Assembly: GCA_030248225.1 (NCBI GenBank)
Contig: JASANE010028601.1
Span: 62,001-126,000, forward strand
DNA length: 64,000 nucleotides
Origin: Trileptium ribeirensis
Taxonomy: Eukaryota; Nematoda; Enoplea; Enoplida; Thoracostomopsidae
Direction of reading: 5' to 3'
Shown here: positions 18,291 through 42,153 of the stretch, piece after piece
Position numbering within the stretch: the first letter of the stretch is position 1
Layout: each line of letters begins with the position of its first letter
Position numbers and translations under genes: made by a program
Notes under the pieces: model-generated
Told to the model about the DNA's origin: nothing
Databases searched by the model: none
The model's input: only the letters and a program-made list of their open reading frames with translations

Positions 18291-19560
18291 ATCCCGTTTT
18301 AGTAAGGCCTAATCCGCATTTGGTACTCTAGATGTAATTCTAAATGTGTAATCTAACATTTTTAGACTGGCTATCGACTGAGATTATTTCCCGAATAAAT
18401 AAAAAAATTATTTATATTAATTTTATTTCGCCTTATTAATTTGTTTTATATTATTTTATTTTTTGGTATTAAGATTCAGGCAAATTTAACTGCATTTTGT
18501 CTAAATGACGAATTTTGATTGCTTAGACATGTGCTGTGTGTGGTGTTCAAGCATCAGTGAACTTTACTCAAATTTTCTTGTCGAACCTGTTATGTTGTTG
18601 TGTCGAATGCATTATTATTTGTTAACACGTAAAATCAAGCAATATTGTCACTGTTCTATGTTTTACCTTGAGCCAATCTATTTGGCTTTCATGGCTCCAA
18701 ATTTTTGACTAAGTGGTAAAATGTATTCAATGCAGCGAAACCACGGCCAAGAATGCGCTATTTTCGTTCTATTTTTTCTTGAGTTAAGCCTCTCTAAATC
18801 GCAATGTCTGGAAATGTATACCATTGTTTGCTAAACCGGAATTAGAATAATAAGAAACGTTAAAACCGCCGTTAGCTTTACAAGGCATCGAAGATAGTCA
18901 TATCGTACGTAGTCAAGAAAACTCACATTGAAGGTGGAGCTAGGGAACCAATGAGAAAGAGAATCGAGTAACGAGAGAAAACGAGAAAAAAGGAAAGAAA
19001 ATCGCAGTGATCATGAAATCAAAAACCCTGAAAAGTGAATTGGTAATGACAAAAACAAATATAAGTTAAAATATATTAAACTGATGGTCACAAAACTTGA
19101 TGAACGCCGATACATACCGGCTCCCGGATTTACTCATTTGTATCCAAGATTTATAAATTTTTACTTCAGTTTCGGGGGTTTTGTATTATTTTTTCAATCT
19201 TAACACTGTAGAATTCATCTTTTATATATAAATTTATCGCCTACCAGCATTAAAGCATCTGTACTGCTTGCTCATAGTATTTGGCAATATTGGACAACTT
19301 GTTTTAATGAAAATTTTTTACATCACTAAACTGTACATCACTCCGGGTACTGCTTAATATCAGACTATTTAGGTAAAGTGCCTTGTTATAAAACATTGAA
19401 TGATTGTAACATTTGAGACCAACAGGTCATTTTATGAACACGTAATACTGAATATTTAAGCCCGTTTGGTATGTTAATGAAAACTATCTTAAAATAATTT
19501 AGTATATATTTCACATTCGAGTAAACCGTAGATCATGCCATACATCAAGCAAAATCTTTC
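18291..19560. other. AT-rich non-coding DNA
   Basis: A low-complexity T/A tract lies at 18390-18480 and an A/G-rich tract at 18950-19010. No gene is recognised. Confidence 0.4.
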
Positions 19561-19936
19561 AATTCTTGTTAAGTGCAATTATTTGTTGGTAAGCTGTAGC
19601 ATAGCAGCACACAGTTTCACTGTTGCTGTGGCGCCCAAGCAGTTTACTGCAAGCAATTCCTGTTAAGTGAAACTGTTTGCTGGTAAGCTGTAGCATAGCA
19701 GCACACAGTTTCACTGTTGCTGTGGCCTCCAAGCAGTTTACTGCAAGCAATTCCTGTTAAGTGAAACTGTTTGCTGGTAAGCTGTAGCATAGCTGCACAC
19801 AGTTTCACTGTTTCTGTGGCTTCCAAGCAGTTTACTGCAACCAATTCTTGTTAAGTGAAACTGTATGCTGGTAAGCTGTAGCATAGCAGCACACAGTTTC
19901 ACTGTTGCTGTGGCCTCCAAACAGTTTACTGCAAGC
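19561..19936 (+). repeat. Tandem array of a 94-bp unit, four copies, with internal dyads
   Basis: Units start at 19561, 19655, 19749 and 19843, with no length variation. Copies 2-4 are nearly identical and copy 1 is slightly diverged at its start. Each unit contains the inverted pair AGTGAAACTG / CAGTTTCACT enclosing GCTGTAGCATAGCAGC, plus the short palindrome GCAGTTTACTGC. One unit could therefore fold as a nested hairpin. Because 94 is not a multiple of three, the same peptide appears in three overlapping minus-strand frames; these frames are artefacts of the repeat. Confidence 0.95.
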
Positions 19937-20710
19937 CTGGAAACAAACATGCGTTGGAAGAGACATATAGCGATTTACTAATTCCAATTGTTCTAACATT
20001 ATTTTCTATATTGTAAAATGGTGGAATCAATGTATCGTCATTAATATACACCACAATACTTTACGATTTGTCTGCTTTTAACTGAACTTACTTCGTGTAA
20101 ATGTTTAACTTTTAAATTAATTTACAGCAAATGTCTGTTGGACAGCATTATGGTCAACATGAGTAGAAAAAGACTTACGCTGTTAAGTATACATGCGCCT
20201 AGTGCTGAGGAGGTTATGCTCTAAGGCTCAGACCACCCTCCCCTACCCCCTTCACTGGTCGTCCAACCGGCCCGGCGGCGCTGCAGGCGCCGAAGCCCCT
20301 CACTTTCCGACCGGCTGAACCTCCTGCTTGCAGGCCGAAGACCTTGCACACCGGAAGACCGCCTACCCCTCTCGCTGACCTCTCAAGTAGAAAAAATACT
20401 TGAATTTTAAAATATATTTTGCAAGCAATCATCCCGACGCTGTTACATAAAATGAGTTAATGCCACCTGATACTACTGTTCAGAAGGCTTCCATATTTGG
20501 TATTTGGAGTAATAATATCAAATATGTTTTCTAGATTAAGCCAGAGCTAACGATAAATAGTTCTGCTAGATTTAACTTTAGATTCGCCTTGGTGGATCAA
20601 CATGACGATCCAGTGAGACTATATGCGAGAATTCGAGCGCACTGACAGAACATGGGTGCTTATCTATGAGAGTATCTAGCTTCGAACAGTATGAGGAACC
20701 ACTAATTTAA
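19937..20710. other. Non-coding DNA with a short GC-rich island
   Basis: A GC-rich island at about 20205-20385 (CCGGCCCGGCGGCGCTGCAG and similar) opens a minus-strand frame rich in Gly, Val and Arg with no recognisable family. Abrupt edges suggest a repeat insertion rather than an exon. Confidence 0.35.
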
Positions 20711-20975
20711 CCCTTTCATGCCGGAATTAATTTGTGAACGGTGCAATGTTTCACAAACTCAAGCCCCCGCCGGGGATCGAACTGGGAACGTATGGGTGAA
20801 ACTTATGTACGCAAACCACTGAGCTATCTGGGAGCTGTTGTTCGGTTCTTTATGGAACCTCACAACGTGAACGAATAACAACGCACGTTCAAACGTACGA
20901 CATACGACAAACGCAGTAAACGCAACGACTCGCAATATGCGTTAGGTCCGTTTGGTCCCAGCCGGCATGAAAGGG
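20711..20975 (-). mobile_element. piggyBac-like TTAA MITE, copy 1, carrying a tRNA-like core
   Basis: Terminal inverted repeats CCCTTTCATGCCGG and CCGGCATGAAAGGG start directly after TTAA (20707-20710); the other side reads TTAG, a one-base change. TTAA target sites and CCC...GGG ends are hallmarks of piggyBac elements. On the minus strand the element contains a tRNA-like A box (TAGCTCAGTGGTTTGCG, about 20821-20837) and, at normal tRNA distance, a B box (AGTTCGATCCC, about 20773-20783). It is 265 bp, the same length as copy 2, from which it differs by scattered substitutions. No transposase is encoded. Confidence 0.8.
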
Positions 20976-21006
20976 TTAGTTATGCGATAGGCTAATTTTT
21001 ATTTAA

Positions 21007-21271
21007 CCCTTTCATGCCGGAATTAATTTGTGTATGGTGCAATGTTTGACGAACTCAAGCCCCCGCCGGGGATGGAACTGGGAACGTATGGGTGAAACTT
21101 GTGTACGTAAACCACTGAGCTGTCTGGGAGCTGTTGCTCGGTTCTTTATGGAACCTCACAACGTGAACGAATAACAACGCACGTTCAAACGTACGACATA
21201 CGACAAACGCAGTAAACGCAACGACTCGCAATGTGCGTTAGGTCCGTCTGGACCTAGCCGGCATGATAGGG
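21007..21271 (-). mobile_element. piggyBac-like TTAA MITE, copy 2, carrying a tRNA-like core
   Basis: This second 265-bp copy lies 31 bp from the first in the same orientation. Here both flanks are intact TTAA (21003-21006 and 21272-21275), confirming the element boundaries. The ends are CCCTTTCATGCCGG and CCGGCATGATAGGG. The internal minus-strand A box reads TAGCTCAGTGG (top-strand equivalent slightly altered by CTGTCT in this copy) and the B-box region carries GTTCCATCCC instead of GTTCGATCCC. This copy is thus less likely than copy 1 to bind polymerase III factors. Confidence 0.85.
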
Positions 21272-21454
21272 TTAAGCATGACGTAATAATTCAGAGTTTG
21301 AGAAAAGTCGAAAAGAAAATAACAGATATTCTGCTGAAACAATAGCCTCGCATTTTGTTATACTTCTCAATTTTTATTTCTGATACAGTAATAAATTTAT
21401 AAGATAGTGTTGAAATATTAATTAATCTGAAATATGTGTATTATGTAACTTTGA

Positions 21455-28990: not shown

Positions 28991-30965
28991 AGATTTCCGC
29001 AAACAGAGGTATTCCGGAACAGTAGCAAAAGAATTTAAGTGTATCAAAGTTCTATTAACTTTCCATCGCAGATATGTGCCGATGCGTGAATTAACGACAA
29101 TGGATGGCAAATAGACTCAAGGAAACTCAACTTGCCCTTGCAAAGACATATGCTAAGAGTCATCTGAAGCCTCTAATGTTATATCACTGCCACTGCTTCC
29201 GTTGCTCAGAGCCAGGCGAAGTACTGCTAGTACGTGCCAAATCTTCAATAACTTGGAGCCATGCTATTACCACGTTCTATGGAAACGATACAAGGCAAAT
29301 CGACTCGTCGGCGAAATGTTAGCTAATCGTAATATTTGGACAAATATGACAAATTAGATGGCCCTTGTGCAATTCACGGCAGACAGAAAACCACGTCTAT
29401 GTTGTCTAGGCACTTTGTAGGCAACAAAGGATTGCCTATAAAGATTGTTGAAAATATGCCTTGCGTTGATATATTATAGATAGAAAGACAACACTGTATA
29501 CTCGTTATTTGAAGAAATTATGGGGGTAATATTTTTTACAAACAATTGCATTGTAAATGTTTTGTTACATTTGCACATTTCATTAAATTGTAACATCCCA
29601 TTATTAGCGGCATTGTTAGTTTAAAGTTCCGCTACTAATCACTGTAATATTAACATATTCTTCCGACTCCCACTCTCCTAACGAATTACAGGAGATACCC
29701 AAAATGTTGCTTTGGAGGCACCAGCTATCAGGTCGCCAATAAATCAAATGACAAATAAAGCAGTTAGAGGCAGCCATTAGTGATTGCTACTCCTGGTCTA
29801 ATATTATTAGTGTTTGTCGACTTTTTAGTCAATAGGAACCTTGAGTGAGGGTAGTCGATACCACTAGCGAATATTAAGGATCATTATTGTAATCCATCAG
29901 GGTAAACTTAACAACGACTCATGTACCGGATAAGACATAGTACATGAGTATGACGGAACGTGATACTCTTCTAAAAAATGTCCTAATGGGCTCTTAGTAC
30001 CATCAATAAAAACTAGTTCGGATCCATCACTGGGTTGGGGGCCATTTTACCTTCTCAAAGATGATGTCGAGGCAAATTTTGTTTTTCAAAATCACCCACT
30101 CACAAACAAAAACTTTGCAGATCTTACCAAATTTTATGTATAATACTATAAACGCTTTTATATGGTGATAGGGGGAAGTTCACATTTCTATCTAAAATAA
30201 ACCATGGACTCATGCTAGCACTAGTTGAATTTTGCCCTATGCCTATGCCATAAAAGAACGATGGAGTTTATTTGATCTATATGTAGTAGCTATGACAATA
30301 ATATTGTCAAAACGTGCGAAAAAGGGTCGTTTGACACTCTTAGCGAAATGTAGTTATTGAACATTAGGAAAATTTACTGACGGCCTTTATGTAAAGATTT
30401 CCAATGAGTTCTTGCATAAAATATTAATACAACAGAGCTTTATAACAAAATGACTTACTAACAAAATTGTTGTATATTTTGAGTTTGCAAAATTGCTATT
30501 TATTTTGATTTTACAAAATTTTTCGTATATTTTGGTCGACGATAACACATTTTCGGATAAATAGCAGTCCAAGGCTTCAATAAATTAACTGAACAAAGAT
30601 GGTTTAGATATCTCATTAACGATTTCAGAAAATACAATGATAAAGGCTGCAAATAACGTACGAATTTTTATAACAATTGCATTATTAATGGTCGCTTTAG
30701 TATTAATATCATATTCCACTGAATACGTGCCAATAGGAAGTGTTAAGATTCGTCAAACACTTGGTCATATACGCCATTATGTTTCAAACCGGTCTCTCCT
30801 GTCTACAGGTAGGTAAAGTCGCTTTTGTACTGAACCACTCAAAGCAGCTTCTCCAAAGACGGATCGCTCAAATTTTATTATTATATCGTTCAGCTCAGCA
30901 AGCAAAGATGTTTAGATGGTTTTCTCTTCATCAATGTCCCAGAAATTGTGTTGCCATTACTTTAA
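28991..30965. other. AT-rich non-coding DNA
   Basis: The first few hundred bases may be the decayed 3' part of the LINE just upstream. The rest shows no recognisable gene or repeat. Confidence 0.35.
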
Positions 30966-31163
30966 GTAACTTCACGTCTTACTAGAAAATAAAACTATCT
31001 TTAACTAATAAAACACAACACGACAATATAGACCTAGCTCTCTATTCTCATTATCAATCATTACAACAATATTATCGACAACATTATCAATCTTCCACTG
31101 ATCCTGTAAAAACGGTTTTATGTGTTTAAATTTAAACTTGCCCAATATCAAAGTTGTGCAACA
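30966..31163 (-). repeat. BEL/Pao 3' LTR
   Basis: On the minus strand it starts TGTTGCACAA and ends CACGTGAAGTTAC-like (top strand GTAACTTCACGTCTTA). It aligns along its length with 38782-38973; for example both contain AAAACTATCTTTAACTAA and ACCTAGCTCTCTATTCTC. It should carry the polyadenylation region. Confidence 0.85.
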
Positions 31164-31544
31164 CTCCGGCGGGAGGAGATTGCTTATTGAATCAAATTTA
31201 TTGAAATTTTCACTCACGGCGAGCTTGACCTTAATTTGAATTGATCGGAGCTTTCAAACAATTTGAACTGAACGCGATCATGCGTAGAACTTGTTGTTAC
31301 ATTAACTAGCAGTATTTTGAAACCGGTGACTTAGTTGACATTGTAGTTTTGAATATACTAGTTGCTACATTGCCTAGCAACATTTGAGAATGCAAGTAGT
31401 TGAGTCCAGAATTTGAATTGAATGAAGTAACGTATTACCCCACTAACGGGTAATAAATTTAAATTTGGTAGAAATACCGCTAACTACGAATTTAAATCTT
31501 GTTTTACGATCAAAAATTTGTAATTTTAACCATTGGAATAATGG
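31164..31544 (-). repeat. BEL/Pao 3' untranslated region with three constant-loop hairpins
   Basis: It lies between the end of ORF3 and the 3' LTR. It contains hairpins at 31293-31313 (wobble pairs, loop CATTAAC), 31361-31381 (arms GTTGCTA and TAGCAAC, loop CATTGCC) and 31433-31455 (8-bp arms TATTACCC and GGGTAATA, loop CACTAAC), as read on the top strand. A polypurine tract is not obvious on the element strand next to the LTR. Confidence 0.7.
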
Positions 31545-32733
31545 TCACTCATTTGATATACAGCAACAGCAACCACTGTTCATGCAGATAACTGTGTAGG
31601 GCATCCGATCCAAACCCGGTCCATGTGTTATACGCGATCGATAAATTTGGCGAAAGCCTGCATAAGTGACGTGGAGGTTATCAGGTTTGAAGAACCTGAT
31701 AACCTCCACGACCCATCTGGATCGAGAAAGACATCGTTGGCGCCTGGACGGATTAAATTGAAATAGTGGAAGTGATTTTCCGGGAAGCGAAACTTGAACT
31801 CCTGGTCGGCACATTCCGTGTGCGATATGCCATTTTCCACAAGAACCCTCGGAACACCGATCGTCGACACCATGAAGACTCGGGACTCTGTGAAATTTTG
31901 CATCTCCTAGAGCAAAAGTCGCAGAGACTCCCAGTTATGCTCCCAGGCTCGGGGATTTGGACGACAGCGACAGGCGACATTTGTGCCACATACAATGATG
32001 ATAAAGACGCAATCTCAAAGCCGTATACCTAGACACTTCGCTGCAAGCTGACTGTATTTCGCGCCTGGAATCGTGATCACCGGGCCGCTAGCAATAGATG
32101 CTACTTGACAGCATTCGCTGTCAGAGAGCAGCAAGACAGCTTGGAGTAGGTCGCCTCTGGCAGCAAACGATCTCGCATCAATTCACCGACGGAATAGTGA
32201 GGAGAGAAGACACCCGCTGTGAATTGCCGGAAGACTTGCTTAACCTGCTGCCCGTAGATGTTGAATCCGAGTAGAGGATGCGATGATGTAGAATTAGCGA
32301 TCCTCCTCTCGCGGAGACCACATGACATTATCCGATTTTCGGAGCTATCGGTTCTGTACTGAAGAAACTCGATGTCATCGTCGATGTTTGCCAGACGGAC
32401 AAATTCGGAATGGAATGGGTTGTCGCCGTGCTTCAGTAGGTGCACCATGACATTGTAGTACATCGTTGGAGAATACAATATAGTGACTGCCCTTGGAGGT
32501 TTTTGAAACCGGGTGCTTTCAACCAAGTTGTGATATTGCTTGGATAGGATCTTGGCATCACGTTCATAACCGTTTTGAAATAGATAGATTACAGCGAACA
32601 TCATCTCTACAGAATTCGCCAAATGAGTGTAGAATGGCAGTGGTGGAAATGTGTAGAAACGGAATAGTGGTCCATTGGAACGAATTAAGTATTTCATGGC
32701 TGAAATGGTACAAATTAATTTAGTTTGACTCAT
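31545..32733 (-). pseudogene. BEL/Pao extra frame ORF3 with SGNH/GDSL-hydrolase-like half
   Basis: Its ATG directly follows the pol stop codon (TAA then ATG, position 32733) in the same frame. The first 210 codons (32733-32101) are open; this part contains YTFPPLPFYTHL and is unrecognised. Then, in shifted frames, come blocks expected of an SGNH hydrolase: VLLLSDSE (nucleophile block, near 32110), ITIPGAKY (near 32070), VCGTN (oxyanion Asn block, near 31985), VFMVSTIGVPR, and finally KPDNLHVTYAGFRQI (catalytic D-x-x-H, near 31690). At least three frameshifts or stops break it. SGNH enzymes are esterases or lipases; related esterase domains are known in some LINE ORF1 proteins. Position between pol and the 3' LTR is where envelope genes sit in some LTR elements, but nothing envelope-like is visible. 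Function in the element is unknown. Confidence 0.6.
31670..31710. other. Perfect 18-bp inverted repeat with a 5-base loop inside ORF3
   Basis: Arms CGTGGAGGTTATCAGGTT (31670-31687) and AACCTGATAACCTCCACG (31693-31710) are exact inverses around TGAAG. On the element strand this covers the codons for the predicted catalytic D-x-x-H of the hydrolase. A smaller perfect inverted repeat (TGACAGC / GCTGTCA, 32106-32123, 4-base loop) covers the predicted nucleophile Ser codon. Confidence 0.95.
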
Positions 32734-34418
32734 TTAGGAGTATTTATTAAATAGCGCACGCCCCCGAACAGCCGCCTTCCGCTGAGGTCTGATCTCTTTA
32801 TGATTTTTGTTCTCTGGAATTTTCGCCGCACTAACGTCAAGAGAGGATTCAATTGGATACAACTGCTTAATCGCTCTATTTATTTTTCTGCCAGTTGCCT
32901 GACGATAGCCGACCAAACATGTTCATCGTTTCCCACTTGAAAACTCTCTATGATTCCCATTCGCCAACGTGACTGGGGTAAATCATCCTTTATCAAAACA
33001 ACTGTTCCCAACCCGTGGAACCAATTCCGAAGAATTCCGCTCATTCATTTTCGGTAGTGGGTGTACGCGAAGTGCAGACAGGAACTCATTGCGCCATGTC
33101 TGCCAGGATTGATTTAATAACTTCTCGCCCTTTGACCAATCAGTCACCAATCCTTCGTGAATCAAAGGTCGACCCTCATTGTATGGGACGGAGGGAAACC
33201 AACGCGATTGCGTTTGGAGAGGAAATATGCGGGAGTAAGAACATCATCGTCGATGTCATCGTCGATATTGAACAAAGGGCGTGAATTAATAACTTCGGAC
33301 ATCTCCGTGACCAACGTTTGAAGCTGAGTTAGTGAGAGACAGCGCTTGCCTATGGATTTTCGCAATGCCCGTTTCACTGAACCGACGAGACGTTCATAGA
33401 ATCCACCCATCCAGGGTGCCAGTTCAATGATAAATTTCCATTCGATGCCTTGGGAGCAGGAGTGATTTTGTACGTCGGCCGTACGAAACACTGTCGCCAA
33501 TGCCTTATCAGCTGAATGGAAGTATATAGCATCGTCTGAAATGATTTTTGTGTGCCTACCATATGTAGCGAAAAGTCTCCTGAGACACAATATGAACTGT
33601 TCCGCGGTAAAATCTGACACAATCTCCACATTGACTGCCCGGGTAGCACAACAGGTGAAAAAACAAATCCAAACTGATTGAGTCTGAGTTACGACACCAT
33701 CTATTGTTGTTCACAGTTTTAATACTTACTGGACCCAAATAATCGACACCAGTATGTTCAAATGGATGAGACTGTGATACCCGAAACCACGGAAGCGGGG
33801 GCTTTCAGGTGGCTTAAACGGACCGGACTCTGCTTTGCGACAGATGATGCATTTTCGTAGGACTAGTTGAATTTGTGCTCGGCCATGTGGAATCCAATAT
33901 TTGAGTCTTAACTGTGATAGGGTATGTTTGCCGGAATGGAACAGTTTCTCATGGCATTGTTGAATGACAAAGTCCGAAAACTGATTATTCTTCGGCACGA
34001 ACAATGGCTCTCTATCTTCCAACGGATGGCTAGCCCAACGTAATCGACCCCTGCACCTTACAAGACCTTCTGCGTCGATAAATAATCCAATGTGTCTTGT
34101 GAGTATGGAATGCCGTTTATCTCCAATACTATTTGAGAATACGGCGGTTTGAATACATTTCACCCAACGCCGTTTAGCTTTCGATGTTTCATCAGCTGTG
34201 AGTGTGTTTCCGTCATTGCTATTTTGACACCTTCGTTTGCATTTTGAAATCCTCCGCTCAGCCCATGCTGTCACACGCAACAGTCGGCTAGCCGACGAAA
34301 ACTTATCTACGTCAACTATTGCTCCGATTCCTTTGGTTTCCTGTGGCGTAGTAATTGCGGCCTGAACATCTACCTCGATGTCCTTGGTTATTGTCGTGAC
34401 ATCATATTCGGGCCACAA
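32734..34418 (-). pseudogene. BEL/Pao integrase region
   Basis: The N-terminal zinc-binding part (34418-33726) has an H-x-x-C-H-like pattern, CHEKLFHSGKHTLSQLRLKYWIP, shortened here by one frame, followed by CIICRK. The catalytic core starts with GVDYLGP (about 33760-33735, in a second frame), continues with EIVSDFTAEQF and SDDAIYFHSA at 33629-33500, and FYERLVGSVKRALRK with the third acidic residue near 33400. The C-terminal region (33165-32734) has WSKGEKLLNQSWQTWRNEFL and ends LYPIESS near the terminal stop, as in BEL integrases with a DUF5641-type tail. In the family it inserts the cDNA into the genome. Interrupted by two or more frame changes. Confidence 0.85.
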
Positions 34419-34427
34419 ATCAAGAGG

Positions 34428-35207
34428 CTAGTTCAAAAATTGTGCGCCGTTCCACCATAGATCCGAAGATTGCGAGTTGGCAAGGCTCGAACCGCGCGAT
34501 GGAACATGAGCAGGCTTGCACATTATTGGGACATAACGAAATTGGAATTTTGAATTGGTCTTTATTTCACGCCCTCGATTCGAGACGAAGACGGGAAGAA
34601 TCTTTTGTGTTGCAATCCATCGTAATACACACTTGGAATCCGTCCAGATTGCGACCTGTTGCATTAGAATTCTTAGTTGATTGACAACAAATGTAGAAAT
34701 TCGGGCTCCAACCAGGAACGCAATTAATTCAAGCTGGGGTAGGGAAATAGTTTTTATCGGCGCTAGTCGAGATTTCGAAAGTATAAGATTTGACGTTTTG
34801 GTACCATCAGGATTTTGGACTGTGAGATAGCATGCTGCTGCATAAGCCGTAATTGAGGCGTCGCAAAAACAGTGGAGATGAAAATTCGGCTTCTGTTGCT
34901 CGTTGCTGAATGTCGCAAGCACAACAAATCGCTTTATATCCGCAGTAGGAATACCAGACATGTCAACTTGAACAGACGCTATTTTTTCACACATTGCCTG
35001 TGAAAGGGTTTGATTCAAGTCCAATTTTAGCTTCCATGTTTCTTGAATGAGCGCTTTGCCTCTAACTGTAATCAGCGAAAAGAAGCCGTACGGATCATAT
35101 TCTGATGACACTGCGGCTAGTACCTGCCGTTTTGTAGTAGTCTGAGTATTACTGTCGCAATCCGTGCAGGACAATGAATCTTCTAATAGCCGCCATTTCA
35201 ATCTCAT
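34428..35207 (-). pseudogene. BEL/Pao A17/RNase H region of pol
   Basis: The 259-residue open segment contains SEYDPYGFFSLITVRGKALI, the hallmark of the Pao-type 'peptidase A17' region that follows reverse transcriptase. Next come FCDASITAYAAACYL and IWTDSKCVLRWI, the RNase H-like blocks with acidic residues in CDAS and TDS. RNase H activity removes the RNA strand during cDNA synthesis. The segment is open end to end and is the best preserved part of pol. It is separated from the reverse transcriptase by a stop at 35226. Confidence 0.85.
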
Positions 35208-35225
35208 TACGCTGGGATGTGTGTC

Positions 35226-36080
35226 TTATTCTCGATCCGCCGAGGCTATTTGGTCACGAACTGCTTCTGAATTGGAGTACCACTCTCGAATATTCATCGA
35301 AATGTCGCTGAAAAGCTGTTTGGCTTCCTGGTAGAAATTGATGGCATCGTTCACACCATCTCGACCAGACAACACATTGTCAACATACAAGTTATCGGCA
35401 ATGTCTCTTGCTACTCTGGACCCGTTCATTCCGAAGTTATGCTTAATTACTGCGGCCAGAAAGAATGGCCATGAAATTACACCGAACAGTACCCGGCAGA
35501 AACGAAGGACCCACAAATTGGATGCTGACACGGGCTTTGTAATGTCCTTCAGCCATAGAAATCTGGTTACGTCACGATCTTGAGTTTGCAGTCCGACTTG
35601 GAGAAACGTCTTTTCAATATCCGAAACCGCTGCTATTTTCGTCAAGAGAAATCGGATCAACATTCCACATAGATTCCGCCAAATCACTGGTCCTCGATGA
35701 AAACTCTCATTTAGGCTCATTTGGTTTTTGGAGACTTGGTCGATGCGTCGTAGACAATTTGGACCATAGTTGTTGACCTATTGGCACGCTCCACCCCGTG
35801 ATGAGGAATATAGTGAGCGCGTGTGGTCTCCAACGGTGACTGTTCATTCACTGTTTCTACAACACCCTTGTTAGCTTGATCGCGAATGATGTTGTCGTAT
35901 TACTTCAACAGTGCCGGCTGTTGTTGCAACCGTTTGACATTGGATACCAGTCGGCCAAATACCAGTCCTCGATTGTTGGGTAACTCTGGGTCATTGGTTT
36001 TCCATGGGAGTGTTACCTCATAATGCCCATTACAACGTTGCACCGCTTTGTTGAACAACTTTACCGCCTAATTGTCAGCA
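35226..36080 (-). pseudogene. BEL/Pao reverse transcriptase region
   Basis: The first part (36080-35721) is readable only with a stop and frame change and contains VYDASTKS, the start of the Pao-type palm. The open part (35720-35226) has VSDIEKTFLQVGLQ (first catalytic Asp), DVTRFLWLKD, RFCRVLFGVISWPFFLAAVI and the box LYVDNVLSG where most members have YVDDV. The second Asp of the YxDD box is thus Asn, a change expected to abolish polymerisation. In the family this domain copies the element RNA from a tRNA primer. Confidence 0.85.
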
Positions 36081-36683
36081 TTATCTTTGACTCAATTCAT
36101 CCTCAAAATTCAAGAAGCATTCAATATCGTTATGATTGAGCATTACGTCATTCGATTGCCAAAACATGACAACAGCAGTGGCTTCCGTGCAATCATCCAC
36201 TTGCACTCTGCCAGTGACGATGTAACCTAAATTGGAAACCAATAAATTCATTCCGTCTTGAAGTTGAATCCGCTCAGTCGAGATAAAGTTATAGTAGTAG
36301 TCCACACCCACAAGAATGTCGATCTGAACGCTTTCGATGCATCTGCTTGGTGGATCGCCTAGATGGATTGATGATCGCAATGGATTGCTGGAAATGTTGA
36401 TTGGATATTTATGGATTGGTGGCGCTATAACATCGGTTACCAATATTGACAAGTTGATGCTGCCGCTGTTTGTCGGAATATTAATAGTGGCTGTCTTACA
36501 GAGCTTAGTGGACCGTTTGCTGTTGGAAAACGTGCCAGTGAACAATTCTTCGCCATCAACACAACCTCCAAGTACTGCGAGAAGCGATTCCGTGATGTAT
36601 GTTCGAGTGCAGCCCGTATCGAAGAATATCCTCGCAGTCACAGGACCGAACTGCGAAGATAGCTGTACTGTTGCCATTTGCAT
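36081..36683 (-). pseudogene. BEL/Pao aspartic protease region (DUF1758 type)
   Basis: An open segment of 200 residues. The active site reads FFDTGCTRTYI near residue 20, with the D-T-G triad intact. Further on, QIDILVGVDYYYNFIS corresponds to the conserved 'I-x-I-L-I-G-x-D-Y/H' end of DUF1758 proteases. The family cleaves the gag-pol polyprotein. It is in a frame different from the zinc knuckle upstream and from the reverse transcriptase downstream. Confidence 0.85.
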
Positions 36684-38110
36684 CTAGACTCGATTGCTTT
36701 CAGAAAGTAGAGGTATATTTTGGTAATCATTCTGAGGCGAAGCACTTGTAGTAGACCATTTCTTTTGATTGGATTGCATCCCGACTGATGGGTTGCTCAT
36801 TCTTTGTTTGCTGTCCGTGGATGGAAATTTCTCTGGGCACAGGCTGCTATGATTTGAAGACTTTTTGCAGTAAAAACACACCTTATCGCGTGTGCAGCTT
36901 TGAGCATCGTGCCCATCAATGAGGCGTCTGAAACATTTGCCGTGAAGCAGTGTTCTTCGTCGGCACGCCGATGGGTATTTTCGGCATTGATCCGAAAAAT
37001 GTGGGCTCTTCCGAAATGCACATTTTACTCCAGGCTAGGATTGGCTGTTTAGTTTGGTTTGGGGCACAGGCCTACGTATGGTGAAGTTCGGTAAACTCTG
37101 TCGATTACCGTTGACGGAACCACTGAGTGAATGTTGCTGTGGGTCAAAATTCCGGCCTCTAACGTTATCTAACTTCTGACCGTAACACTCGCTCATTGCG
37201 CGAGCCTGTATTGCATCATTCATCAATTCTCGGAGTTTAGACAAGGTCCACGGAGCCGTACAGTTCAGACGATGCAGCTGTACACGGACAAAATGGGGAA
37301 ATTTAGAGAGAATCGTCGGTGCAAACACTTACCCAACTGTGTCTTCCGTCAACCCAAGGGCTACAAGACTCCGGATATGCTGTTCGCATTCGTCGTAGAC
37401 TTGTCGTAGCGACACTTCCTTACGCGGAGGAATAGCAAACAATTTTCCAGATGTGCCTGGACTGCTATCTCCGTGTTACCGAAAGGTTCCTTTAACGCTT
37501 CTACCATAGTAATGTAATTAGACGCTGTTAGAAGATAACCTTCGACCATCGAGATTGCTTCACCCATCAAGTAGCTCCGCAGATACTTGAATTTATTGAC
37601 ATCTGCGAGATCGGGATTACTGTGGACGGTTGATTCAAAGCTGTCCCAAAATTCTCGCCATCGAAGCGGGTCACAGTCGCACTTGTCAATCTTCAACTTA
37701 GGAAGGTGCACGGTTTTTGTGTATCTTTGTGATGATGCTTTACTTACGTCGCCGTCGACACCTCTAATCCGGGAAACAATCTAAACAAGGTTCGATAACA
37801 TAATTTCTGCTGAACCGACTGTTTCATAAATGGAGTCGTTGAATTCAGCTGTCCGCATTACTTCGTTTGAAATGGCGTCATCCTCAGCTATCAGCATGAC
37901 AATCTTGGAATCAAGCTCTTCAATCTTTCCTTGGTAGCGGCGGGTCGGTTGCTTTAAGTCGTCGACAATCGACGGATCGGCTTTTTCTGGCACAGCTGAT
38001 CGAACTATGCTAGCTGCTTCTTCATTTGAGTGTGACGCTGAGGACAAAACACCCTGCGGTCTTTCGCTACAGTAGACATGGTTCACAGTGAGACGTTTAA
38101 ATAGTTGCAT
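36684..38110 (-). pseudogene. BEL/Pao gag with zinc knuckles
   Basis: The first open part (38110-37781) is 109 residues and predicted partly coiled. The second (37711-37361) carries LPKLKIDKCDCDPLRWREFW, DSFESTVHSNPDL and KFKYLRSYLMGEA, the signature of the DUF1759 gag core of BEL/Pao. The third (37328-37035) holds the 'KFPHFVRVQ...W' style linker. Near 36950-36850 the Cys/His pattern KCFRRLIDGHDAQSC followed by VCFYCKKSSNHSSLC gives two zinc knuckles, the second with the BEL-style C-x2-C-x5-H-x3-C spacing. Gag would form the particle and bind element RNA. Three frame breaks. Confidence 0.8.
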
Positions 38111-38760
38111 CCAATTGAAGGGATATATTTGTTACACTACCTAACAAAATTGAAAACGCTGCTCCGCAGTCGTTGAATTTTGCTATTTTGTTTGGATATC
38201 GTCTAATTCACTTGCATCGCGCCGTTTTTTCACATCAATAGAAGGAGTCGGTGAAATGACTTCTATCAGTTTGCATTGAGACGTAACTTTTTGTCACACT
38301 ACCTGACAAACTTAACGGATAACTTAGTGATGCAAAACGATAGATTAAGCGATCGACTTAAGAGGATGGAATCAAAAAAATTGTGGCAACAACCCACAAA
38401 TGTGGACCCGAAATATTGCTTGCACAAGATAGAGCCTCTGATCCAGCTGGCCAATTGGTTCTCCGACGTTAGCGTAGAGCGGCGAGCACCGACGGACAAC
38501 GACAAGGATGGAAATTTCACACGTTGAATTTGGCATTTATTAGGTTTTGCCACACTGTGGCAAAGATTTGACACATTGAATGTTGTTGTAGTGCTATTTT
38601 TGCCACATTCACTGGCAAATTACCGGCAAGTGATTTATTATTGTACGAAAAATTGGAATTCAACGAAATTGTAGTCGTCGAGTTCAGGAAGTGACTTTTT
38701 GTCCCATTAACGGACAAATGAAAGTTGAAATTGAAAAGTTGAAACGAAAACAACAACTTT
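38111..38760 (-). repeat. BEL/Pao 5' leader with five constant-loop hairpins
   Basis: Between the primer-binding site and gag, the top strand shows five hairpins with 7-bp arms: 38128-38148 (TTTGTTA, loop CACTACC), 38290-38310 (TTTGTCA, loop CACTACC), 38546-38564 (TTTGCCA, loop CACTG), 38599-38619 (TTTGCCA, loop CATTCAC) and 38698-38718 (TTTGTCC, loop CATTAAC). In every case the second arm is the exact inverse of the first. The leader has no supported coding frame. Confidence 0.9.
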
Positions 38761-38777
38761 CCGCGCTTGCGGCACCA
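38761..38777 (-). other. Putative tRNA primer-binding site
   Basis: On the element strand TGGTGCCGCAAGCGCGG starts five bases after the LTR end. It begins with TGG, which pairs with the CCA end of a tRNA. The remaining bases would pair with an acceptor arm ending in TTGCGGCA; I cannot name the tRNA. Confidence 0.65.
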
Positions 38778-38781
38778 TTTG

Positions 38782-38973
38782 GTAACTACACGTCTTAATG
38801 GAGAATAAAACTATCTTTAACTAACAAAACACAACACGACAACATCAACCTAGCTCTCTATTCTCCGTAAAGAACATTATCAATCTTCTATTTATCCTGC
38901 AAAAACATTTTTTATGACTTTAAATTTAAACTTGTCCAATATCAAAATTGCGCATAAACGAAAGTGTGCAACA
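38782..38973 (-). repeat. BEL/Pao 5' LTR
   Basis: On the minus strand it starts TGTTGCACAC and ends CGTGTAGTTAC. It aligns with the 3' LTR, with substitutions and indels, the largest being a stretch (GCGCATAAACGAAAG on the top strand) absent from the other LTR. Confidence 0.85.
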
Positions 38974-39870: not shown

Positions 39871-40161
39871 ATTTATCAAGTAAAACCAGATTTTGACATA
39901 ACAAAGCATATGTTTTATGGTAGTCCTAGTACAAATACATTTTATTAATGCTTTAAACATAAGGTTCCCGCTTTTAAATTTGTCCAAATATTGCTGTAAC
40001 TAACTGCGTTAGCGAAGATTTGGTGTAGCTTGCGCTGAAAACACAAAATAAATTAAAATTCACTTTCATAATTTTACCCACTTTGTAATACTCTACTTAA
40101 TTAAAAATATTCTGACATTAATTTACCATCATATTTAATTAAACACATTATCTATTTCTAG
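39871..40161. other. Intron of the C1GALT1-type gene
   Basis: AT-rich sequence ends in the acceptor TCTATTTCTAG at 40161. Confidence 0.6.
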
Positions 40162-40448
40162 ATAAACGCTACAACTTTAATGCTGCAAATCGCCGTGCTT
40201 CGCACAAAATTCTATGTTGGCTATCAACCTCGGAAAAAACAAGCAAGCGTCGCACTGCTGTCGAAGATACATGGGGTCCACGATGTGATCGAACCTTTTA
40301 TGTTACAGCATCACCTGCCGACCAAAACCTCACTGCACCCGTAATAATTAACGAGACAACGCTTCAGGTGCCTTCTGTCGAGCATTATAAACAGCTCAAA
40401 CCAAAAACTTATTATGCTCTAAAATTTCTTATGGACTACTACTTAAAG
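40162..40448 (+). CDS. C1GALT1: Core 1 beta-1,3-galactosyltransferase, exon with start of catalytic domain
   Basis: C1GALT1-type enzymes (family GT31) transfer galactose to GalNAc-Ser/Thr in the Golgi, making the core 1 O-glycan. This exon encodes the beginning of the lumenal domain: HKILCWLSTSEKTSKRRTAV, then EDTWGPRCDRTFYV, matching the family's 'VLCWIMT...VKATWGKRCN' region, and near the end YYALKFLMDYYLK before the DDD motif. Acceptor TCTATTTCTAG precedes 40162; donor AAG|GTGAGT follows 40448. It starts with two bases of a split codon and ends on a whole codon. Exons for the membrane anchor are not recognised; they would lie upstream, possibly beyond the BEL insertion. Confidence 0.8.
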
Positions 40449-40960
40449 GTGAGTAAATTTGTAAGGTCTATTCTATGCTCATATTTAACAGGCTTTAACC
40501 TTCCATACATTATCACGCGTAGATTAAACAACAGAATGTAGCTATCTCTCGTCAAACACAAATCATAGCTGAAGAACGTTAAAAATCAGCGCTGGTCATA
40601 CTCGATGTATCCCGAATTTTTTATAACTTATGGAAAACGGCATAACCCTCTTAATGTTTTGAAGAACAATAACCACGGCTAGACTGCACCAAAGTTCTAT
40701 TTCATCATTAGTTTAGCGCACTTGTAAGTATACAAAAGTTGCGATTCTTAAATTGACGTAATCAAAAAATATCAACTAACGTTTGCAAAAACGTATAGCG
40801 ACACCCGATGTGAAGCAGCTGATGAGACTAGATATCATATTGATAAGTCCTTCGAATGTTGTCGCTTAAATTCAGTGATTAAGCATACAATTCATTCTTG
40901 ATGCTGATTTCTGTAACCTATTAAACAGAAACGGCAATGTATACAGAACAAACTTTCCAG
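40449..40960 (+). other. Intron of C1GALT1-type gene
   Basis: GTGAGT ... AACTTTCCAG, 512 bp, phase 0. This acceptor was chosen over ATTAAACAG at 40928 because it joins the two exons in frame as YLK-EYDWFFK. Confidence 0.7.
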
Positions 40961-41247
40961 GAATACGACTGGTTTTTCAAATGTGATGACGATACATACG
41001 TTGTGATGGAAAATCTTCGCCGATTCTTGGCCAGTTATTCTCCGAACGATCCGCATTATTTTGGCTGTCAACAGCGCGTTCGAGGTGTATTGTATAATAG
41101 CGGTGGTGCTGGTTACACACTTAGTCGTCGGTCGATGTCTATGCTTCGTGACAGTGTTTTCCCTCAATTAGATCCGAAAAATTTGCCGGATCCAACTGAG
41201 CCAGAGGATATCTGGATGGCAAGGCTTGTCGACAAAATAAAAATTAG
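40961..41247 (+). CDS. C1GALT1: Core 1 beta-1,3-galactosyltransferase, exon with DDD motif
   Basis: It begins EYDWFFKCDDDTYVVMENLR. The DDD triplet is the GT31 metal/UDP-sugar binding motif, and the surrounding WF-K-DDDTYV is the C1GALT signature. Further on are HYFGCQQ and SGGAGYTLSRRSM, the conserved acceptor-side loop, and PEDIWMARLV, corresponding to the family's ED-x-x-L/M-A/G element. The exon is 287 bp, starts in phase 0 and ends with two bases of a codon before the donor AG|GTAGTA. Family identity is clear from the order and spacing of these motifs. Confidence 0.9.
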
Positions 41248-42153
41248 GTAGTATATACACCCATTATATATAGTTGCCTGAAAAATTTTCATCTTATATA
41301 TGTTAAGTTTACACTTTATATCATATATATCATAGGACACAGCTTTAGAACTAAAAGCGAGGTCTGCTGAAGGCGTCTTCTGGCATCGTTAACGGTATTT
41401 TTGTAACCTTGTGACTTTTTATTGCACATTAGCGTTACGTAATTTACAATTAGCAGCAGTGAATTCACGGTAGACAGGAGGTGGTCTTCACAGATTTCCT
41501 CCGATAAATATAGAGAAACTTGCGAACAGACCTAGTGTACTTTCAAAATATATTTGGTTTCGAAATTCAAAATGTACGTATTTGAATTTCGTGGTACTAA
41601 AGTCGTATTATATAAGAGGCCCCATAAAACCACTGGAAGAAGCTCACTCCACATTAATGACAAAATATAATTGAAACAATGTATGCCTAGTTCTTATCTA
41701 GCATTGTATAATCGAAATCACTGGGTTTCAAAAAACTTTACCAGAAATCGGAATAATCTATATTAATCTACTTTTACGCTAATCATTTAATCAATGGAGA
41801 AAATAAATTGAGCGAAATACACTTGCTTTGTGCTTATTTTAACAGTAGTATGAGCGTACTTATGACATTGTTCATTGAAACACGAAATTAAATTAAAATT
41901 AAATACAAAATATAGATAAATACAATAATAAATAAACAAATAAAAAGAATTTGAAACTCTTAATTTTTATACTAATGTTACAATTTCTCATTTATTGGTA
42001 GCATTATAATTTTCTTTATATATAAATAATTTTAATAAGATTTATTAGTAAATTTCGCATAGTTTTCAAGGAACAAACTCTGTAAAAATACATCAGCGAC
42101 GAAAACCAGCAACTGTTTTAAGATATAATATTGATTTAATTATCTTTCTACAG
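41248..42153 (+). other. Intron of C1GALT1-type gene
   Basis: GTAGTATATA ... TCTTTCTACAG, 906 bp and strongly AT-rich. A NAGNAG acceptor (CAGCAG) leaves the exact exon start open by one codon. Confidence 0.75.

Follow-up and report, generated by a model that had tools for sequence, protein, structure and literature searches.

Short hairpins with a near-constant loop and differing, still complementary inner stems in the 5' leaders of a BEL/Pao retrotransposon group

Are short hairpins near both ends of a retrotransposon kept for their structure, and what would read them? The question is raised by a 64,000-nt stretch of the genome of the nematode Trileptium ribeirensis (contig JASANE010028601.1, positions 62,001 to 126,000; hereafter the window), which contains a degraded BEL/Pao retrotransposon of 8,021 nt on the - strand. 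A preliminary description of this DNA reported eight such hairpins in the 5' leader and the 3' untranslated region (UTR) of the element and attributed them to selection for structure. All eight are present at the positions given there, and on re-checking the second arm is the exact inverse of the first in seven of them. The analysis covers a single genome of 687 Mb, from which all close and distant copies come. Selection on stem complementarity is well supported; the reading tentatively favored here, based on sequence comparison, is that the 5'-leader hairpins of one BEL/Pao group form an array of RNA recognition sites, read most likely by the element's own Gag.

The central evidence comes from loci selected with the hairpins disregarded. 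A Gag query of 138 residues returned 805 candidates, of which 150 were scored and 30 loci were read. Upstream of the Gag match, the 43,244 nt of these 30 loci contain 42 perfect hairpins with 7-bp arms and a 7-nt loop (7-7-7), compared with 4.35 in 40 first-order Markov resamplings, and the NTTR-arm type accounts for 38, with 0.3 expected. From the start of the Gag match onward (52,399 nt), 23 perfect hairpins occur, including 4 of the NTTR type, all in one locus. The module is present in the leaders of twelve of the 30 loci, among them the window's own; these carriers were designated after their hairpins were seen, and the array is absent from the remaining 18. Of the 39 perfect upstream hairpins in the twelve carriers, 38 belong to the NTTR type. 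If one mismatch is tolerated, each carrier leader has between 1 and 10 hairpins, for a total of 72 in 18,000 nt; the corresponding totals are 5 for 25,244 nt of the 18 non-carrier loci and 6 for the 52,399 nt from the match start.

Counting covariation on hairpin alignments is circular, in part or entirely, as the hairpins had been selected for pairing. Complementarity was therefore assessed on sites picked by TTTG-N13-CAAA alone, with inner pairing not a criterion. The twelve leaders contain 28 distinct sites of this kind, with the inner three pairs complete in 20 and two of three formed in the other 8, where 0.44 complete would be expected. The other 18 loci have 3 such sites upstream, none complete, giving 20 of 31 for all 30 loci together, and nine other spacings (9-12, 14-18) in the twelve leaders yield 16 sites with 2 complete. 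Related BEL elements of the same genome, whose comparison the preliminary description had proposed, thus repeat the design with inner stems that differ in sequence and remain complementary, and this complementarity across lineages found through Gag supports the earlier claim of selection for structure.

In the sense orientation, the 21-nt module reads UUUG-NNN-(7-nt loop near GKUARUG)-N'N'N'-CAAA. Its anatomy was derived from 23 distinct perfect upstream NTTR hairpins, one of which was dropped as doubtful (GTTGTAA arms, loop GACAAAT). Across the remaining 22, the three outermost pairs are T-A, followed by a fourth pair that is G-C in 20 hairpins and A-T in 2, part of this outer stem being fixed by the NTTR filter itself. 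The inner pairs vary, comprising T-A or C-G, then C-G, T-A, A-T or G-C, then A-T, G-C or C-G. Since the outer pairs are nearly constant across these hairpins, the arm differences described earlier hold mainly for the inner three pairs and do not extend to the outer ones; the loop, described earlier as constant, varies around GKUARUG between lineages. The outer stem departs from this pattern in the 3'-UTR hairpins of the window and in an ATTG-armed cluster of locus L087. That cluster, at 1820-2045 and downstream of the Gag match, comprises four perfect hairpins with ATTG/CAAT outer stems and the loops GTCAATG, GTTAAAT and, twice, AGTAATG. Inner stems are partly conserved by position, with the Gag-nearest hairpin being TTTGTTA in L059, L060, L061, L077 and L084. 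Flanks are A/T-rich and otherwise, judged by eye, not common to different lineages.

Within the window, the leader and the hairpins, together with candidates of lesser standing, are as follows; LTR denotes long terminal repeat, and loci labeled L are copies or relatives of the element.

38111 to 38780, - strand: 5' leader, site of the hairpin array, from the LTR to the first Gag-like frame
38698 to 38718, - strand: hairpin TTTGTCC-GTTAATG-GGACAAA (sense); stem intact in copy L002, loop changed
38599 to 38619, - strand: hairpin TTTGCCA-GTGAATG-TGGCAAA (sense); stem intact in L002, loop changed; formation in the leader RNA not predicted
38567 to 38587, - strand: degenerate hairpin candidate with 3 of 7 Watson-Crick pairs
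38546 to 38564, - strand: hairpin with the 5-nt loop CACTG (+ strand); scored at E = 0.072 by a model from which it was left out
38380 to 38400, - strand: additional leader member, loop CAACAAC (+ strand); 6 of 7 pairs here, 7 of 7 in L003 and L004
38290 to 38310, - strand: hairpin TTTGTCA-GGTAGTG-TGACAAA (sense); stem intact in L003, L004 and L005, broken in L002
38128 to 38148, - strand: hairpin TTTGTTA-GGTAGTG-TAACAAA (sense), closest to the Gag start; weakly predicted in the leader RNA
36978 to 36998, - strand: perfect hairpin in the presumed C-terminal part of Gag (by eye), doubtful member; UTR-only model E = 1.3; identical in L002, L003 and L004
34985 to 35005, - strand: perfect hairpin within the Pao peptidase frame, doubtful member; UTR-only model E = 0.013; not intact in L008 and L009
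31433 to 31455, - strand: 3'-UTR hairpin with 8-bp arms; stem retained in L011 and disrupted in L012 and L013
31361 to 31381, - strand: 3'-UTR hairpin GTTGCTA-GGCAATG-TAGCAAC (sense); stem retained in L011 and L012 and disrupted in L013
31293 to 31313, - strand: imperfect 3'-UTR hairpin with 4 of 7 Watson-Crick pairs, the other 3 being G.T on the + strand; L011 and L012 differ from it

The stem of the hairpin at 38128 recurs in the Gag-selected loci L060, L061, L077 and L084. The hairpins are confined mainly to the leader and the 3' UTR. The earlier statement that they avoid coding sequence does not hold as worded, as two perfect 7-7-7 hairpins with CAYT loops lie in coding sequence (34985-35005 and 36978-36998); their membership in the family is doubtful because a model built from the six perfect UTR hairpins alone scores them at only E = 0.013 and E = 1.3. 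In total, the element contains 8 hairpins with perfect 7-bp arms and a 7-nt CAYT loop, compared with 0.0033 expected from 300 dinucleotide shuffles, and the same pattern occurs 0 times in 55,900 nt of flank. Among the 99 CAYT sites of the scanned region, seven Watson-Crick pairs are formed in 8, six in 0, five in 2 and four in 4. A chance product of AT-rich DNA is ruled out by the shuffles, the empty flank, the Gag-selected leaders and the inner-pair test. A known RNA family was likewise rejected, with 0 Rfam matches in the window at the gathering score.

Perfect stems could also arise without function if template switching, during replication or reverse transcription, keeps perfecting short inverted repeats, a process that can create and mend such stems (PMC8794818). 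Consistent with this, stems of exactly 6 of 7 pairs are absent among those hairpins of the window element that have the complete family loop, despite an LTR divergence of 0.182 (Kimura two-parameter distance, K2P), and the flanks (1-30900 and 39000-64000) are also enriched in perfect hairpins (arms of at least 7 bp, loops of 3-15 nt; 94 versus 55 in shuffles). A further hairpin outside the family, with a perfect 18-bp stem and a 5-nt loop, lies at 31670-31710 in a frame near the element's 3' end; hairpins with arms of at least 11 bp are expected 0.02 times in element shuffles, and this one may be a template-switch footprint. Template switching nevertheless leaves the similar loops, the near-constant TTTG/CAAA, the 7-7-7 size and the confinement on the Gag tree unexplained, and imperfect members exist (38380 here; L002, L046), making a functionless origin improbable.

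Close copies add a view of individual hairpins. Leader copies are located on C14325, C3108 (two) and C9404, and 3'-UTR copies on C12694, C3108 and C13068, with shorter matches on C9404 and C3000. Both C3108 leader copies carry identical hairpins 38128 and 38290, and L002 keeps the stems of 38128, 38599 and 38698 despite changed loops, with 38290 broken. As an argument for maintenance after insertion, the calculated probability that all stems would still be perfect under the LTR divergence is low (P = 0.0009 for K = 0.182; P = 0.13 for K = 0.04), but it is not relied on, given decayed members in the window and broken stems in copies. The 3'-UTR hairpins are shown in close copies, with one imperfect instance in a distant lineage: L091, of the L083 lineage, has its 3' LTR at 717-932 and one hairpin at 543, whose loop is GGTAATG and whose stem forms 6 of 7 pairs. 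The 3' ends of carrier lineages L089 and L090 yielded no family hairpin, though the LTRs of both are unlocated.

Whether the module exists away from its element was addressed by the genome-wide pattern search that the preliminary description had called for. The pattern TTTGNNNCAYTNNCNNNCAAA has 172 matches, compared with 74 for the reversed pattern, and the details below cover the 100 listed of these 172. Fully paired stems number 10 among the 100, with 1.6 expected. Seven lie in loci matching the window element (four on C3108 and one each on C9404, C3859 and C11882), the C3859 and C11882 loci being diverged relatives recognized by Gag (tblastn E 2e-5 to 3e-40). The remaining 3, close to the chance figure of 1.6, lie on C88, C1370 and C8182 and represent two distinct sequences; their loci (L016, L021, L048, L049) show no DNA or protein match to the window element, although a remote BEL relative could escape such a comparison.

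These near-chance numbers bear on a tiny structured mobile element that would have spread into BEL elements, another proposal of the preliminary description. Some window copies do have flanks in common, including a 31-nt family (D2), and on the + strand the left 10 nt show 39% identity among nine hairpins of the window against 26% for near-by places. Across lineages, however, the flanks differ, so that such an element fits poorly, and the inner stem differs between most copies; we regard this origin as very improbable indeed. Dimerization through loop-loop contacts, also proposed, fits poorly because the loops (GGTAGTG, GTTAATG and others) are not self-complementary along their length. Packaging, translation and other protein binding, by comparison, stay compatible with the data.

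The distribution of the array follows Gag relationships. In a tree of the 30 Gag loci, 11 of the 12 carriers lie on one branch with moderate support (83/92) and L083 lies apart, the Gag alignment being short and near-copies helping the carriers to cluster. Carrier state requires two changes on this tree, compared with a mean of 9.6 in shuffles and with 0 of 500 shuffles as low, and 22% of bootstrap trees need one change. The array may have a single origin.

This distribution also bears on a host RNA-binding protein that would control translation, stability, export or localization of the element's RNA, or silence it. The anatomy is that of any protein-read hairpin with a near-constant loop, and the end of one hairpin lies just ahead of the Gag-like frame, 17 nt before its first ATG. 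A host reader is at odds with an array that follows the Gag tree and with the genome-wide matches listed, where the 3 perfect ones outside element-like loci are set against 1.6 by chance and no set of host genes was seen. We therefore consider a host reader unlikely, while giving it more weight than the other alternatives to Gag.

The element's own Gag is favored as the reader because leader position, repetition and clustering on the Gag tree fit it, as does the layout described for packaging signals in RNA viruses (PMC6281560). In the mechanism proposed, the module would act in genomic RNA, its constant loop and lower stem being read by a protein and its inner pairs merely holding the loop in shape. 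The reader would most likely be the nucleocapsid domain of the element's own Gag, and several weak sites could jointly mark the RNA for packaging into particles. Differing inner stems may stop neighboring copies from pairing together and may limit deletion between repeats during reverse transcription. A stronger version, possible but more doubtful, is a group-specific modular RNA tag, in which up to ten hairpins with distinct, independently folding inner stems are read cooperatively by the element's own Gag, forming a packaging code that evolves with it.

Several results weigh against recognition of an RNA array by Gag. The 18 BEL loci that manage without the array show that it is no general packaging requirement. 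The 28 TTTG-N13-CAAA sites represent fewer than 28 independent events because of near-copies among the loci (L065, L069, L071 and L087; also L077 and L078) and variants of one ancestral hairpin. Stems in the eight copy loci do differ less (8/210 sites, against 9/105 in loops and 287/2,452 in the rest of the UTR), which speaks for the array, but this comparison is biased toward stems because only hairpins perfect in the window copy, six in number, entered it. Predicted folding is uneven: the four perfect hairpins of the 670-nt leader reach mean pair probabilities, 5' to 3', of 0.84, 0.01, 0.33 and 0.15, the minimum-energy fold includes two of the four, and with about 60 nt of context 2 of 4 are predicted in the window, as are 7 of the 9 perfect hairpins of L061 and L071, with 2 not. 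Neither the whole leader (z = -1.06, 20 shuffles) nor the 3'-UTR stretch (z = -0.98) is unusually stable. Among the eight imperfect TTTG-N13-CAAA sites, examined by eye, a sense wobble occurs in one and A/C pairs, which would wobble on the other strand, in three, so the RNA-sense reading is not singled out. On the other side, perfect hairpins folded singly in the sense orientation give -3.0 to -9.3 kcal/mol, and in a 211-nt 3'-UTR stretch the two perfect hairpins reach 0.64 and 0.99. Folding prediction thus backs the hairpins in part, and competing folds, help from a protein or a role of the other strand are possible.

A role in DNA is a further alternative, with the module serving either as double-stranded protein sites or as single-stranded hairpins in complementary DNA (cDNA) during reverse transcription. 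Watson-Crick pairs dominate and sense G.U pairs are rare, the sense RNA is not predicted to form every hairpin, and retroelement leaders with repeated protein sites are known. For a double-stranded site, inner complementarity would be needless, yet it is complete in 20 of 28 sites; this argument does not touch cDNA hairpins. Overall, a DNA role appears rather improbable, less so than a functionless origin.

The assignment of the window element to BEL/Pao is based on a Pao peptidase A17 domain and on paired LTRs flanking the coding part. The LTR pair shows 29 differences in 181 ungapped aligned columns, corresponding to the K2P given above, and the first Gag-like open reading frame spans 37781-38110, with its first ATG at 38110. 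The remaining features are listed below.

38781 to 38968, - strand: 5' LTR, ends approximate
36081 to 36683, - strand: aspartic-protease-like frame (DUF1758; PF05585, E = 7.1e-06)
34428 to 35207, - strand: Pao retrotransposon peptidase frame (Peptidase_A17; PF05380, E = 2.2e-42)
30965 to 31168, - strand: 3' LTR, ends approximate, aligned with 38781-38968; repeats D1, D3 and D5

The frame at 35226-35720 matches no Pfam family at the 0.01 cut-off. Past the integrase-like part, two frames occupy 31545-32733, one of 210 aa (32101-32733) and one of 129 aa (31545-31934). The Pfam scan gives no match for the 210-aa frame or for a 91-aa frame at 31628-31903, and a relative of the 129-aa frame is present in the L083 lineage; the frames in this region are possibly a third gene of this BEL group. 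A global protein search returned 3 distant A17 proteins, and no relative was confirmed among viral contigs. Exon-like frames adjoin the element at 40143-41251, including a Fringe-like frame at 40937-41251 (PF02434, E = 3.9e-10) whose closest solved chain is GalNAc 3-beta-galactosyltransferase 1. Tandem repeats with units of 94 nt and 296 nt lie at 19560-19936 and 20705-21274, and no tRNA genes were found within the window.

Among known systems, an LTR element whose leader likewise carries recurring protein sites is Drosophila gypsy, through the Su(Hw) binding-site cluster of its insulator. The Su(Hw) motif is double-stranded and fixed, whereas the inner bases of the BEL/Pao module change in complementary pairs. 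Retroviral and Ty1/Ty3 leaders hold individual structures; here, by contrast, one 21-nt module recurs up to 10 times with differing inner stems. The array does share with the packaging and dimerization structures of those leaders a position between LTR and Gag (PMC4974528, PMC5454406), and the first of these accounts describes Ty1/Ty3 Gag binding sites as not precisely defined, with scattered sites likely (PMC4974528).

A closer parallel is offered by dispersed packaging signals, described as multiple hairpins with a common loop motif (PMC6281560) that occur in RNA viruses and hepatitis B virus and are held to act together in packaging (PMC6281560, PMC7612645, PMC8677749). The BEL/Pao array likewise consists of many short hairpins that have a loop motif in common and otherwise differ in sequence. 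Unlike those signals, its hairpins cluster in the 5' leader, joined in close copies by 3'-UTR members, their lower stem is near-constant too, and their binder is only inferred. Among the best-ranked matches in open-licence papers on BEL or Pao, no description of leader hairpins was found. An array common to several lineages, with compensatory variation built in, amounts to a naturally occurring mutational scan of the requirements of a retroelement RNA-binding protein, and it makes testable whether dispersed recognition sites of the virus type also drive the packaging of LTR retrotransposons.

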